In this document: positions 5,135-14,398 of the stretch, in pieces
Numbering within the stretch: the stretch's first letter is position 1
How the letters are laid out: each line of letters starts with the position of its first letter
Virus record (IMG/VR): IMGVR_UViG_3300035698_011143
Span: 1-29,930 of that record
Source of the DNA: a virus
Direction: 5' to 3' (one strand)
DNA length: 29,930 nucleotides
The notes under the pieces: generated by a model
What the model saw: the letters and a program-made list of their open reading frames with translations, nothing else
Databases searched by the model: none
What the model was told of the DNA's origin: nothing
Made by a program: the position numbers and the translations under genes

Positions 5135-8100
5135 ATGAGCTGGCGCAAGCATTTTAAGATCGAAACACCTAGTCCGTTAACAGCAGAAACTAGAGGGCCA
5201 AACACAACTGGTGCATATAGTCACTATTCTAGTCATTTGCCCGAAGTTTATATCGGACACCCTAATCGCGTACAAAGATATCATCAGTACGAAAGCATGG
5301 ATGTAGATTCTGAGGTCAATGCTGCATTAGATATCTTAGCCGAATTTTGCACACAAACAAACACAGAATCAGGAACGCCATTCACTGTACATTGGCACGA
5401 AGATCCAAGTGATTCAGAAACTGATGTTGTAGCTAAACAACTAATACACTGGAACAACATTAACGAATTCAACAAACGAATATTCAAGATGTTCCGAAAC
5501 ACATTGAAATATGGTGATCAGGTATTCATTAGAGATCCTGAGACTTACAGATGGTTTTGGGTTGACATGAATGACGTTGTTAAAGTTATTGTTAACGAAA
5601 GTGAAGGCAAAAAACCGGATCAATACATACTAAGCCACATCAATCCAAATTTTGAAAATATGACTGCTACTCAGCGTACATTCAAAGACAATTTCATGTC
5701 GAACCAAGGCGGTGGCGGCGGGATTTCTCAACCAAATTCACCTTACAGTGGCGGCGGCAGTTCATCAACTGGACGGTTTGATTTAGGCATTAGTGAAGCC
5801 GCGATTGATGCAGAAAATATCATTCATGTTAGTCTAACTGAAGGCCTGGACGTTAATTGGCCTTTTGGAAACAGCGTCCTAGAGAATATCTTCAAGGTCT
5901 TCAAACAGAAAGAATTGCTAGAAGACGCAATTATCATTTATCGAATTCAACGAGCACCAGAGCGTAGAGTATTCTATGTTGACGTTGGTAGTATGCCGTC
6001 GCACATGGCAATGGCTTTCGTCGAACGGTTGAAGAATGAAATACATCAGCGTCGTATGCCGAGTAAAACAGGCGGCGGATCGAACATTCTTGATACTACA
6101 TACAACCCTCTATGTATATCGCTTGACACACGTATTCCGTTGTTAGACGGAAGAACACTACCGTTAACTGAAATTATTGCAGAGCAAGATCAAGGCAAAG
6201 AAAACTGGATTTATAGTGCGAATCCAGTAACTGGTAGTATTGTCACTGGAGAAATATCATGGGCCGGCGTTACTCGAACAGATGCTGAAGTGATTAAATT
6301 GCACCTAGATAACGGTGAATCTTTAACTTGTACACCAGACCATAAGATTCCTGTATTAGGAAAAGGATTTGTCAGAGCAGATGAATTGGTAGTTACTGAT
6401 AGTCTAATATCACATGAAACGAAACAAGAGCCTATTCATAACCACAAGATGGTCAAAATTGAATATTTAGAGGAAACAATAGACACTGGTTGCTTAAACA
6501 TTGACAATGAATACCATACTTTTGCAATAGAATCCGGTATTTTTATAAAGAACTCTATTAACGAAGATTATTTCTTTCCACAAACTTGTCTTTCTTTAGA
6601 TACACGTATCCCACTACTAGGAGGAACTGAAAAGACCTTAAGTGATATAATAGACGATCATAAAAACGGTGTACAGAATTGGGTATATGGGTTAGATAAT
6701 AAAACCCATGGGCTAGAACCTGCGAAAATTGAATGGGCCGGTGTTACAAGGCGCGATGCCACTGTTTATAAAATTACATTGGATAATGGAGAATCGGTTA
6801 CAGCAACACCTGACCACCGTTTTATAATGAGAGATGGAGTAGAGACTGAAGCCAAGGATCTATTAGTGGGCGATAGCTTAATGCCTCTAGAATTAAAAGA
6901 AGGATACAGCGGACCAAAGCAGAAAAACAAGAAGTATACTAGGTATACTAGGTATAGGTCAAATACTGACGGAAAGATTAAATTTGTTCATGCTACTATT
7001 GCGAATAAGCAAGTTGGAAAAGACACACAAGTCCACCACATAGATTTTAACAGTAAGAATAACAACCCAGATAATTTACAGGTCATGTTAACTGAAGATC
7101 ACACGGATTTACATAAAAAGATTGGGACTTATTCTCTAGAGAAGCAATGGAATAATCCGGTGTCGAGACAAAAGATAATTGATGGTATGCATAAACTTTA
7201 TGAAAACGCATCTCCGGAATTTACAGAGATGATTATCCAACGTAATCGAAAAAATGCCCTATCTGGTTGGGAAAATATGCCAGATGTTACGAAGACGAAG
7301 GTTCTAAACTCTTTGTATAATAATAGAGCACGAGTTACAGCAGCGAAACGCATTACTTATACCTTAGAGATGTTTAGCAGCATGAAGGATTCTTTTGATG
7401 CAGGAAACGACAGCATCTCAAAACTTGTTAAAGCATTACGATCTGATATTTGTTTTCAAAATGCATATCATGTAGCAAACAAGAATATTCTAAGAGACAA
7501 AACATTTGATAAGGGAAAAATATATCCAACTGATCAAACATTAAACAAGTTAGTTAAGTTAGTCGGATATGATAAATTTGGAGATTGGAAGGTGTCATAT
7601 ACAGGATGTACTAAATTTTCAAATAAGAAAGCACAACGACAAAATCATAAGATTGTTACAATTGAATTGCTAACAGAAACAATAGACACTGGAGATATAA
7701 CCATTAAGTCAGATTCAGACAGTCATTGGTTCGGATTGTCTGCAGGCATCTATGTACATAACTCCGAGGGTCGCGGGTCTAGAGTTGAAACATTGCCAGG
7801 CGGAACGAACCTAGGTGAAATTGACGATCTTCGATTCTTTACAAACAAGATGTATCGAGGACTACGAATCCCTAGTTCATATCTACCAACTGGTCCAGAC
7901 GAATCACAAGCTACCTACAATGATGGTCGAGTAGGGACTGCATTAATCCAAGAACATAGATTCAACGAGTATTGTAAGAGATTGCAGCGATATGTGGTCG
8001 AGAAATTCGATGATGAATTTAAACTTTTCTTGAAATGGAGAGGGTTTGAATTAGACAACGGCTCTTTTGAACTTCGGTTTAACGAACCACAGAACTTCTC

Positions 8101-8440
8101 TAAGTATCGGGAAATTGAACTTGATACAAGTAAGATCAGTACATTCTCTAGTTTAGAATCGTTTCCGTATTTTTCAAAGCGTTTCCTAATTAGTAGGTAT
8201 TTGGGACTATCGGAGCAAGAAATCCTAGAAAACGAAACAATGTGGCGCGAAGAAAATGAAGAAGATTCAGAAGCCAAGAAAGTTGACATGCGTAGCATAG
8301 GTATCACTCCAGGCGGGATCGATGCTGATCTAGAAGATTTCTCAGCAGATGATGAAGATTTTGGAGACGATATAGATGGCGGCGATTTTGATATCCCAGA
8401 TATGGATCTTGGCGATGCTGATCAACCGCCAAATGAATAA
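5135..8440 (+). CDS. 20: Portal vertex protein gp20, interrupted by two inteins
   Basis: The precursor is 1101 residues. Removing residues 327-473 and 485-876 leaves 562 residues, close to T4 gp20 (524). Portal signatures include YQYESMDVDSEVNAALDILA-like sequence near residues 49-70 (here HQYESMDVDSEVNAALDI), YRIQRAPERRVFYVDVG near 270, and after splicing DYFFPQT joined to SEGRGSRVETLPGG. The C-terminus is acidic. The portal forms the 12-subunit ring through which DNA is packaged and to which the neck attaches. Both inteins start with Cys and are followed by Ser. They lie in the conserved stretch just before the LPGG motif, so the portal should not fold until both are spliced out. The gene follows a TATAAATA element and heads the head module. 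Confidence 0.95.
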   Translation: MSWRKHFKIETPSPLTAETRGPNTTGAYSHYSSHLPEVYIGHPNRVQRYHQYESMDVDSEVNAALDILAEFCTQTNTESGTPFTVHWHEDPSDSETDVVAKQLIHWNNINEFNKRIFKMFRNTLKYGDQVFIRDPETYRWFWVDMNDVVKVIVNESEGKKPDQYILSHINPNFENMTATQRTFKDNFMSNQGGGGGISQPNSPYSGGGSSSTGRFDLGISEAAIDAENIIHVSLTEGLDVNWPFGNSVLENIFKVFKQKELLEDAIIIYRIQRAPERRVFYVDVGSMPSHMAMAFVERLKNEIHQRRMPSKTGGGSNILDTTYNPLCISLDTRIPLLDGRTLPLTEIIAEQDQGKENWIYSANPVTGSIVTGEISWAGVTRTDAEVIKLHLDNGESLTCTPDHKIPVLGKGFVRADELVVTDSLISHETKQEPIHNHKMVKIEYLEETIDTGCLNIDNEYHTFAIESGIFIKNSINEDYFFPQTCLSLDTRIPLLGGTEKTLSDIIDDHKNGVQNWVYGLDNKTHGLEPAKIEWAGVTRRDATVYKITLDNGESVTATPDHRFIMRDGVETEAKDLLVGDSLMPLELKEGYSGPKQKNKKYTRYTRYRSNTDGKIKFVHATIANKQVGKDTQVHHIDFNSKNNNPDNLQVMLTEDHTDLHKKIGTYSLEKQWNNPVSRQKIIDGMHKLYENASPEFTEMIIQRNRKNALSGWENMPDVTKTKVLNSLYNNRARVTAAKRITYTLEMFSSMKDSFDAGNDSISKLVKALRSDICFQNAYHVANKNILRDKTFDKGKIYPTDQTLNKLVKLVGYDKFGDWKVSYTGCTKFSNKKAQRQNHKIVTIELLTETIDTGDITIKSDSDSHWFGLSAGIYVHNSEGRGSRVETLPGGTNLGEIDDLRFFTNKMYRGLRIPSSYLPTGPDESQATYNDGRVGTALIQEHRFNEYCKRLQRYVVEKFDDEFKLFLKWRGFELDNGSFELRFNEPQNFSKYREIELDTSKISTFSSLESFPYFSKRFLISRYLGLSEQEILENETMWREENEEDSEAKKVDMRSIGITPGGIDADLEDFSADDEDFGDDIDGGDFDIPDMDLGDADQPPNE
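6113..6553 (+). mobile_element. Mini-intein 1 in gp20 (147 residues, no endonuclease)
   Basis: Precursor residues 327-473. It starts CISLDTRIPLLDG (block A). A TPDH motif (block B) occurs in LTCTPDHKIPV. It ends with HTFAIESGIFIKN before Ser474. There is no room for a homing endonuclease domain. The penultimate residue is Lys instead of the usual His; some inteins tolerate this, often with slower Asn cyclisation. Block A and the WAGVTR-x-DA region closely match intein 2, so the two are paralogs, and intein 1 probably lost its endonuclease. Confidence 0.9.
6587..7762 (+). mobile_element. Intein 2 in gp20 (392 residues) with HNH homing endonuclease
   Basis: Precursor residues 485-876. It starts CLSLDTRIPLLGG, has TPDH in VTATPDHRFIM and ends GLSAGIYVHN before Ser877, so all splicing residues are present (Cys1, block B His, penultimate His, terminal Asn, +1 Ser). 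Between the splicing blocks is an HNH nuclease, VHHIDFNSKNNNPDNLQ near residues 633-649 followed by LTEDHTDLHKK. Basic helical segments after it may bind DNA. The endonuclease would cut intein-free portal genes and drive homing. Only 11 extein residues (SINEDYFFPQT) separate it from intein 1. Confidence 0.93.
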
Positions 8441-8853: not shown

Positions 8854-9639
8854 ATGAGCAAGTTTGAAAAAGTAGTTGAATTATACATTGCCGAAGACGA
8901 AGAGAAAGCGGCAGCTCTCTTCCATGATGTAGTAGTAGAAATGAGCCGCAACATATACGAAAATATTTTAAATGACGAAGACGAAGATCGTGGCCTAGGT
9001 GGTGACGCAGTAGATGACATGATTAATGACATCGAAGCTGACGAAGCCGGTATTAGCGAAGACGACCTAGACGGCGAGTATGACGACGAAGAAGTTGATC
9101 TAGATGCTGGTGGCGACATGGGCGACTATGCCGACGAAGACGGCATAGATGACGACATGGGCGAAGCTGAACTCGAAGATAGAGTAGTTGATCTAGAAGA
9201 TACACTAGATGAATTAAAGGCTATGTTTGATGAACTAGTAGGCGACGAAGACGACATGGGCGGTGAAGACGACATGGGCGACATGGGCGGTGAAGACGAC
9301 ATGGGCGACTTTGGTGACGAAGACGACATGGGCGACTTTGGTGACGAAGACGACATGGACGACGACGACGACGAAGCAACAGAAAGCTTTGTTCGCGAGT
9401 ACACCGAAAAGGTTCCGGCTCCGTCGAATACTGAAGACGGTAATACCAATAAGAAGTCAGTTTCACTAACAGGTAAAGGTCGCATAGCATCCAAGGCTAA
9501 GGCAACTAAGATCGGTAGCGGAAGCGAAGAAACAGGACGTTCAGCTGATACTGCAAAGAAGCAGACTTATGCAATGGACACTAGAGAAGCAGGCAGAAAG
9601 AAGTTGCAAGCTGCGCCGAAGCCAGTAAGAAAAGCGTAA
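8854..9639 (+). CDS. 67: gp67-like acidic prohead core protein
   Basis: 261 residues. The N-terminus (EKAAALFHDVVVEMSRNIYE, about residues 17-36) resembles the gp67-type core helix. It is followed by a very long Asp/Glu-rich region (about 45-175) with internal tandem repeats, then a basic, Lys/Ala-rich C-terminus. T4 gp67 is only 80 residues, so the acidic region is greatly expanded. In T4 this protein is part of the internal scaffold and is cut by gp21 to small peptides that remain in the head. AGGGAG precedes the ATG by 10 nt. The opposite-strand frames here are serine/arginine-rich artefacts of the repeats. Confidence 0.75.
   Translation: MSKFEKVVELYIAEDEEKAAALFHDVVVEMSRNIYENILNDEDEDRGLGGDAVDDMINDIEADEAGISEDDLDGEYDDEEVDLDAGGDMGDYADEDGIDDDMGEAELEDRVVDLEDTLDELKAMFDELVGDEDDMGGEDDMGDMGGEDDMGDFGDEDDMGDFGDEDDMDDDDDEATESFVREYTEKVPAPSNTEDGNTNKKSVSLTGKGRIASKAKATKIGSGSEETGRSADTAKKQTYAMDTREAGRKKLQAAPKPVRKA
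9247..9358 (+). repeat. Tandem repeat within the acidic core gene (27-bp units)
   Basis: Two perfect 27-bp units (9292-9318 and 9319-9345), encoding EDDMGDFGD, are followed by a partial third. They are preceded by shorter degenerate units encoding EDDMGG and EDDMGDMGG from 9247. This points to recent slippage or unequal crossing-over lengthening the acidic domain. Confidence 0.85.
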
Positions 9640-12718: not shown

Positions 12719-14398
12719 ATGAAATCTTTAATACATTCTTATCTTGCAGGACACCATGCTAAAACAGTTAGTTCTATTATTAAGAATGACACTGTTCTAT
12801 GGGCATGGATATTAGCAAACGCCGATCAGACGATATTAACTTCGGCGACTAATTCTGAATTGATATATTCTGCATTGCATTCTACATTAAACAAATGTAA
12901 ATATGGCAAGAACCGAAAGTTCAAAGGAATAAACCTAGGATACGGCGGATGCGGCCGAGCAAATGTTTGTCGATGTACAAAGGAATCAGTTTCTAAAAAT
13001 GTATCTAAGTCCAAAAGACTAGCATCAGTTAGTCAAATACAAGATTCTAATCAAAAAAGATCAGACACAAATTTAATAAAATACGGAGTTAAAAATACAG
13101 CTCAAACGATAACAGCAAAAGAGAACCATGCAGCTTTTTACAGTGATCATGATAAGGTCAACCAAACAATTGACTCGATTAGACAGACTAATCTGTTAAA
13201 ATTTGGGGTCCATAATCCTCAGTCGCTTGATTCAACAAAACAAAAAACAGAAGAAACTAATTTACAGAAATATGGGCATAAGTATCCTATGCAGGATACT
13301 GATGTTAAACAAAAATCAATCAAATCAAGAAAGCAATTTTTTGATCCTAGTAAAGTATATAGAAAAAATTATAAGGCTTTTTGCAAAAATATGATTGATA
13401 ATTTTCAACTAGAAGTTTTAGTTAAAGAGAATGATTACTTGGGTGTAGCTTCTAGGCCATTAATGCAGTTTAGGTGCACGATTTGTTCTCATGAATTTGA
13501 AAAAAGATTTGATTATGCTGCGTTTCCTGCTTGCAAGATATGCAATCCTAGTAAATTCTCTTATAAGAGTAAACAAGAATTAGAAGTATTTGCATATGTA
13601 AATGGTTACGTGGATGGTGTTATAAGTGGTGACAGGAGTTTGATCAATCCATTTGAGGTGGACATATACATACCTTCACATAACCTTGCAATAGAATATT
13701 GTGGATTGTATTGGCACTCGGAAAATAGTTCTGGAAAAAAATGGAAATATCATAAAAACAAATATGACAGGCTGTTAGAAAAAGACATACGGTTAGTAAC
13801 TATTTTTAGTGACGAATGGATTTACAAAAATAACGTAACTAAATCTATGCTTCGTAATATTTTACAATTAGAAAAAAATAGAATATTTGCTCGTAATACA
13901 GAAATAAGAAAAATTGATCATACACTAGCAAAAGAATTTGTCGACAGTTATCACATACAAAATTCGCCAACTCGAATGTCTGTAGCTTACGGATTATACA
14001 ATCGTGGTAAATTAGTATCGGTTATGACCTTCTTACAAAAAAGTCCAGGAATATTTGATCTTACTAGATTGTGTTCATCTGTAAACGTAGTTGGTGGCGC
14101 TAGCAAATTGTTATCTGCATTTTGTAAAGAGTATAATTGGCAACAGATAATTAGTTTTTCAGACAATAGGTATAGTACCGGAAATCTATATAATGTGTTA
14201 GGATTCGTTCACATAAGTGACGTCCCGCCGATGCAATATTACACTGATTATGAAATCAAGCATCATAAACTATGGATGAGAACCCAGCCCAAGATAGAAC
14301 ATCTTACTGAATGGCAAACGGCTAAATCCATGGGATATGATAGAATTTGGGATTGCGGAAAGAAGAAATTTGTGTTAGAAAATAAGTCAACGGATTAA
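12719..14398 (+). CDS. Free-standing homing endonuclease, Vsr-like EDxHD type
   Basis: 559 residues. In order: three TNxxKYGxxN-type repeats (about residues 118, 157, 180) seen in phage homing endonucleases as DNA-binding units; a zinc-ribbon-like CTIC...CKIC (about 253-276); a nuclease core with QELEVFAYVNG, FEVDIYIPSHNLAIEYCGLY, WHSE and LVTIFSDEW (about 286-370), matching the EDxHD/Vsr fold; and a C-terminal domain (about 390-553) with GLYNRGKLVSVMTF, VGGASKLLSAF, SFSDNRYSTGNLYNVLGF and WDCGKKKFVL, which looks acetyltransferase/Mom-like. There is no ribosome binding site. A TATAAT at 12703-12708 (poor -35 TTGGGT, 18-nt spacer) and an overlapping AATAAATA suggest a nearly leaderless mRNA. 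More AT-rich than its neighbours, it sits as an insertion between gp23 and the early operon. It overlaps the convergent gene by 12 nt. Confidence 0.8.
   Translation: MKSLIHSYLAGHHAKTVSSIIKNDTVLWAWILANADQTILTSATNSELIYSALHSTLNKCKYGKNRKFKGINLGYGGCGRANVCRCTKESVSKNVSKSKRLASVSQIQDSNQKRSDTNLIKYGVKNTAQTITAKENHAAFYSDHDKVNQTIDSIRQTNLLKFGVHNPQSLDSTKQKTEETNLQKYGHKYPMQDTDVKQKSIKSRKQFFDPSKVYRKNYKAFCKNMIDNFQLEVLVKENDYLGVASRPLMQFRCTICSHEFEKRFDYAAFPACKICNPSKFSYKSKQELEVFAYVNGYVDGVISGDRSLINPFEVDIYIPSHNLAIEYCGLYWHSENSSGKKWKYHKNKYDRLLEKDIRLVTIFSDEWIYKNNVTKSMLRNILQLEKNRIFARNTEIRKIDHTLAKEFVDSYHIQNSPTRMSVAYGLYNRGKLVSVMTFLQKSPGIFDLTRLCSSVNVVGGASKLLSAFCKEYNWQQIISFSDNRYSTGNLYNVLGFVHISDVPPMQYYTDYEIKHHKLWMRTQPKIEHLTEWQTAKSMGYDRIWDCGKKKFVLENKSTD

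Follow-up and report, generated by a model that had tools for sequence, protein, structure and literature searches.

Two adjacent inteins of separate site lineages in a T4-type phage portal gene

Results

Organization of the portal gene

The window, which was the whole stretch of DNA analyzed (29,930 bases, one IMG/VR fragment from a single metagenomic contig), contained a T4-type head module composed of the portal gene gp20 and, downstream, the genes of the prohead protease gp21 and the capsid protein gp23. The portal protein is the gate for DNA entry into the virus head. The gp20 open reading frame (ORF; positions 5135 to 8440, plus strand, 1101 codons) was unbroken and matched Portal_T4 (Pfam; E = 1.3e-90), and this match together with the neighboring head genes identified it as a T4-type portal gene.

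The ORF was interrupted in the same frame by two inteins, Int1 and Int2, and all of its parts lay on the plus strand. The N-extein (5135 to 6112; 326 aa ending in TYNPL) was delimited by the Portal_T4 match and by alignment with the empty portals of phages Atu_ph07, Callisto and RaK2. Int1 (6113 to 6553) was a 147-aa, endonuclease-free class 1 mini-intein inserted at site a (YNPL/S, the slash denoting the insertion point), and Int2 (6587 to 7762) was a 392-aa full-length class 1 intein inserted at site b (FFPQT/S), assigned by its motifs and its position in the tree. Alignment with the empty portals placed between them an 11-residue mid-extein, SINEDYFFPQT (6554 to 6586), whose first Ser was the +1 nucleophile of Int1. 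The +1 Ser codon of Int2, TCC (7763 to 7765), opened the C-extein, which extended to the stop codon (7763 to 8440; translation beginning SEGRGSRVETLPGG) and was likewise aligned with the empty portals.

After removal of Int1 and Int2 in silico, the portal was aligned with its counterparts in Atu_ph07, Callisto and RaK2, and no gap fell at either junction. The mid-extein was ordinary portal sequence in this alignment and was not a repeat. A scan of the window for further intein blocks found none besides Int1 and Int2. The evidence for two inteins in gp20 is far beyond chance, and the pair proposed in the initial annotation, 147 and 392 aa long with an 11-residue spacer, was recovered with coordinates exact to the base. 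With the window being one metagenomic contig, the double arrangement might be a chimera created in assembly from two alleles, one with a only and one with b only. The ORF was unbroken, and the same a+b order with a spacer of 10 to 11 aa occurred in independent contigs (L010/L112, L283 and L280/L293), so that a chimera is hardly credible.

Elsewhere in the window, a 559-aa free-standing homing endonuclease was encoded directly after gp23 (12719 to 14398, plus strand; PHROG 3339, E = 4.7e-93; Pfam DUF7487). An acidic low-complexity protein with D/G-rich repeats was encoded between gp20 and gp21 (8854 to 9639, plus strand); minus-strand ORFs overlapping it (9126 to 9494) looked like frame shadows.

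Splicing motifs, endonuclease domain and predicted fold

Intein_splicing (Pfam) matched the gp20 ORF in two stretches (E = 3.6e-20), and TIGR01445 (intein_Nterm; NCBIfam) also matched it in two stretches. Both inteins had the class 1 set of C1, TPDH, terminal Asn and +1 Ser. In Int1, Cys1 was present, the block B motif TPDH was located at 6332 to 6343 (T74 and H77, invariant in the alignment), and N147 was followed by Ser. The penultimate residue of Int1 was Lys instead of the usual His, and the same Lys was found in 45/46 site-a inteins. A penultimate His is usual in inteins, yet not universal, and the Lys is therefore compatible with class 1 membership of Int1. In Int2, Cys1, the TxxH motif (TPDH, 6806 to 6817, invariant in the alignment), a terminal His-Asn and the +1 Ser were all present, and the penultimate His was found in every site-b intein. 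As a speculation, Lys at site a and His at site b could mean that C-terminal cleavage is faster in Int2.

One or both segments might splice no longer, and the product would then be a fused portal or one capable of self-cleavage only. The penultimate Lys of Int1 is consistent with such a loss. Nevertheless, C1 and TxxH were retained in all 73 complete inteins of the survey described below, the window pair had the full class 1 set, both sites lay where the portal is highly conserved, and none of the relatives examined had a comparable loop there free of intein signatures; loss of splicing is therefore considered very unlikely.

HNH_3 (Pfam) gave a match when the whole gp20 ORF was scanned (E = 3.5e-6), and PHROG HNH families matched as well (E = 1.8e-9); with Int2 scanned alone, HNH_3 scored 22.6 bits, below the cut-off of 24.8. 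The HNH core of Int2 (VHHIDFNSKNNNPDNL; 6983 to 7087, the HNH_3 stretch at residues 133 to 167 of the intein) was conserved in the aligned inteins of L005 and L010. The HNH motif formed an insertion between the splicing blocks, and Int2 is predicted to carry an HNH homing endonuclease. Family scans (Pfam and PHROG) were used in place of a strict HNH pattern, which overlooked most nucleases. One mini-intein and one HNH-bearing intein, as initially annotated, were thus confirmed by the nuclease-free Int1 and by the Pfam and PHROG matches of Int2.

The predicted model of the tract contained two HINT-like domains with moderate confidence (pLDDT mostly 70 to 92 in the splicing parts) and was of modest quality overall (pTM 0.40). 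A mixed alignment was kept out of the structure prediction because single site-b inteins spanned the Int1 N-block and the Int2 C-block. Comparison of the predicted model with solved inteins (TM by target 0.84 to 0.89, about 150 columns) suggests a HINT fold for Int1. Among solved structures, Int1 was nearest in sequence to the NrdJ-1 intein (PDB 8ubs; E = 2.8e-9), which was also a top fold match and which differs in being a split intein fusion and in belonging to a ribonucleotide reductase.

Survey of intein-bearing portal genes

Viral contigs were searched with Int1, Int2, parts of the portal and two junction patterns, and a mechanical census followed. The census yielded 166 intein-bearing portal ORFs, reduced to 59 genes by dereplication, with 73 complete inteins; loci were collected mainly via Int1, Int2 and related queries, and these counts describe a query-based sample and not unbiased occupancy. 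A scan of genome contigs for the site-a junction gave no match.

Inteins in the 59 genes occupied eight positions within 40 codons (40 residues from x1 to c), each followed by Ser: TGGG/ (x1), TGGGT/ (x2), YNPL/ (a), FFAQ/ and FFPQT/ (b, one codon apart), LPGG/ (d), LPGGE/ (e) and LPGGDNLG/ (c). At least two inteins were present in 14/59 genes and three in 3/59 (L264/L248, L275 and L282), with the first intein of L275 and of L282 cut by the contig end. The triple combinations were x1+a+d or a+b+d (L248, L264, L275 and L282). Spacers between inteins measured 10 to 29 residues, with 11 between x1 and a, and 11 between a and b (10 in L112). The Int1/Int2 pair is one case of a gp20 hot zone in which site-specific lineages come and go in many combinations.

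Several loci had peculiarities of their own. The x1-a and a-b spacers were equal in length at 11 codons (33 bp, or roughly three turns of DNA), which is probably a coincidence. The site-b intein of L010/L112 was inserted one codon upstream of the usual position (FFAQ/SAEGRGS), yet belonged to the same clade. At site d of L292 (reverse strand, counted among the 14), the N and C blocks of the second intein were in different ORFs, and at site a of L241 and L251 an intein was likewise divided between different ORFs; a frameshift, a decayed allele or a split intein are possible readings of these divided inteins. The portal ORF of L205 had an extein length of 733 after removal of the d-intein, which suggests a further undetected insertion.

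Empty alleles and co-conversion at site b

There were 71 distinct empty tracts with no insert at a or b, and the named phages Atu_ph07, Callisto and RaK2 were also empty. Close portals had no intein (L096), an intein at a only (L253) or an intein at b only (L092). The refuting case named in the initial annotation, relatives keeping these segments in a mature portal, was contradicted by the 71 distinct tracts devoid of both.

The +1 Ser of site a was native in 61/71 empty tracts. At site b, the equivalent position was Ala in 61/71 and Ser in 6/71 empty tracts, and Ser in 13/13 occupied ones; the site-b nucleophile therefore usually comes in together with its intein, or else was an uncommon permissive variant. 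Two empty portals (L115 and L127) had FFPQTSEGRGS, the exact flank of an occupied site b, which can be either the scar of a lost intein or a natural permissive allele.

Between L092, with an intein at site b, and the empty L096, 17/70 bp differed to the left of the site and 3/170 beyond (Fisher p = 9e-8). The codon at site b changed from GCT (Ala) in L096 to AGT (Ser) in L092, and the left-flank changes left the protein unaltered. This sharply bounded tract supports co-conversion of flanking DNA. The site-b inteins of L092 (385 aa) and L282 (152 aa) were the same at 446/456 compared bases, versus 61/78 in the flanking extein, and L282 was without the nuclease part that L092 carries; this indicates a recent transfer and a nuclease deletion. 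The L092/L096 tract and the L092/L282 likeness point to a mobile site-b lineage. For the window itself, the closest empty relative was about 75% identical in the extein, too distant to reveal a conversion tract.

Origin of the two inteins

Int1 and Int2 were homologous by BLASTP in the N-block (47% identity over 105 aa; E = 8e-29) and in the C-block (46% over 46 aa), which agreed with the distant common descent initially annotated. From this homology the second intein might have arisen locally, by duplication of the tract or invasion of the neighboring site, with later loss of one nuclease. Jumps to a nearby site seem to have happened elsewhere in the portal gene: the x2 intein of L025 and the site-a intein of L073 were sisters (98/94), and the x1 inteins (L024 and L264) clustered with those of d and c, the context GG/S being common to x1 and most d sites, a pattern of possible jumps.

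In the splicing-domain tree, however, 13/13 site-b inteins, Int2 among them, formed one clade (100/99), and Int1 was nested among site-a inteins, in a small group (100/98) with L017, L199 and L019, the last being of nuclease length. Sisterhood of the window a and b inteins was rejected (AU p = 2.4e-9). Int1 and Int2 were 46.5% identical, which ranked at the 64th percentile among pairs of a and b inteins taken from different phages (45.3 ± 2.8%), and the mid-extein was normal portal sequence and not a repeat. Local duplication was rejected by the splicing-domain tree, the AU test and the identity distribution, and a local origin of either kind is extremely unlikely. The part of the initial annotation that derived one intein from the other site or from a duplicated tract was thus not sustained, and its view of a lost nuclease was borne out, Int1 being a nuclease-free site-a allele.

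In the extein tree the window belonged to a portal clade of 12 rows, the remaining 11 of which were empty (100*), and the portals of the relatives of Int1 fell in a different extein clade. On this tree, site a required 20 changes and site b 11. With 11 close portal relatives empty and the kin of Int1 residing in portals elsewhere, both inteins were most likely transferred in, each probably out of the lineage specific to its site.

The a and b inteins might alternatively co-home as a cassette, with Int1 hitch-hiking on conversion initiated by the Int2 nuclease 33 bp away. A conversion tract longer than 33 bp did exist, extending about 70 bp leftward in L092. Mini-inteins were present in 7/14 multi-intein genes versus 6/45 genes (p = 0.008, uncorrected) and, at site a alone, in 4/11 versus 1/35 (p = 0.009, uncorrected), counts that were chosen after the data had been seen. 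The excess was lost per intein (7/28 versus 6/45; p = 0.22), and phylogenetically independent pairs gave no association (median p = 1); enrichment of mini-inteins beside neighbors was rejected, as only the raw gene counts were significant. Further against co-homing, the a partners of the four a+b genes came from scattered parts of the site-a clade, the a+b genes formed no group in the extein tree, which needed 4 changes for the 4 rows, and L278 had b without a, whereas its near relative L293 had both. A joint cassette is considered improbable.

Discussion

The locus is very probably explained by two class 1 inteins acquired independently at adjacent sites, each targeted separately, in a T4-type portal gene. 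At site a, the +1 Ser would already have been native before insertion. At site b, where Ala is usual, the Ser of the window was most likely gained by co-conversion when a site-b intein homed in. In this reading, Int1 is a site-a intein that lost its endonuclease and persisted as a splicing-only insert, and Int2, with its HNH endonuclease apparently intact, would presumably still be able to home to an empty site b. Each intein would form a separate HINT domain and excise itself, and after ligation the mature portal, 562 residues long, is expected to read TYNPL-SINEDYFFPQT-SEGRGS (TYNPLSINEDYFFPQTSEGRGS). A stronger interaction between the sites, in which Int1 spread by conversion at the Int2 site and co-resident inteins were also kept divergent against spacer-deleting cross-splicing, is regarded as doubtful.

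Neighboring inteins in one gene are already known; a search of the open-access literature turned up no description of inteins stacked in a T4-type gp20. The adjacent inteins of Haloferax MCM home singly, and poorly together, and one of the sites needs a +1 Ser (PMC10643990). The same study raised the question of whether a nuclease-free intein can home with the help, or the nuclease, of its neighbor. Haloferax MCM and gp20 have in common clustered sites within a single conserved gene, the occurrence of empty, single and double alleles, co-conversion of the +1 residue to Ser (Pro to Ser in MCM; Ala to Ser in gp20) and a lack of support for joint homing. They differ in that the former is an archaeal helicase with LAGLIDADG nucleases and the latter a phage portal with HNH nucleases, spacers of 10 to 29 residues, up to three inteins and a mini-intein beside a nuclease-bearing one. 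A mini-intein and a nuclease-bearing intein in one host protein are also described for Thermococcus kodakarensis MCM and Mycobacterium smegmatis DnaB (cited in PMC10643990; for DnaB also PMC6195587). Unlike gp20, these are other host proteins, and neither is a structural phage protein. Mycobacteriophage packaging genes (TerL and portal) carry inteins, several of them in a confined TerL stretch, and resemble gp20 as DNA-packaging genes; no stacked gp20 case is described in the accessible part of that source (PMC5050341).

An unannotated portal ORF of a huge phage, LR756508.1 (L298:1027-5190), resembled gp20 in having three intein-like inserts and differed in that they lay elsewhere in the portal than at a, b or d. 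Its first two inserts were short and 13 residues apart (SVLEGARRTWKQL); its third intein was distant (33% to Int1 and 28% to Int2).

The gp20 tract forms a natural series for neighbor-aided homing, with none, a-only and b-only alleles in close portals and two to three inteins, 10 to 29 residues apart, elsewhere. It could serve the study of splicing order and of cross-splicing over very short exteins, and it could show how phages tolerate many interruptions in an essential structural protein.
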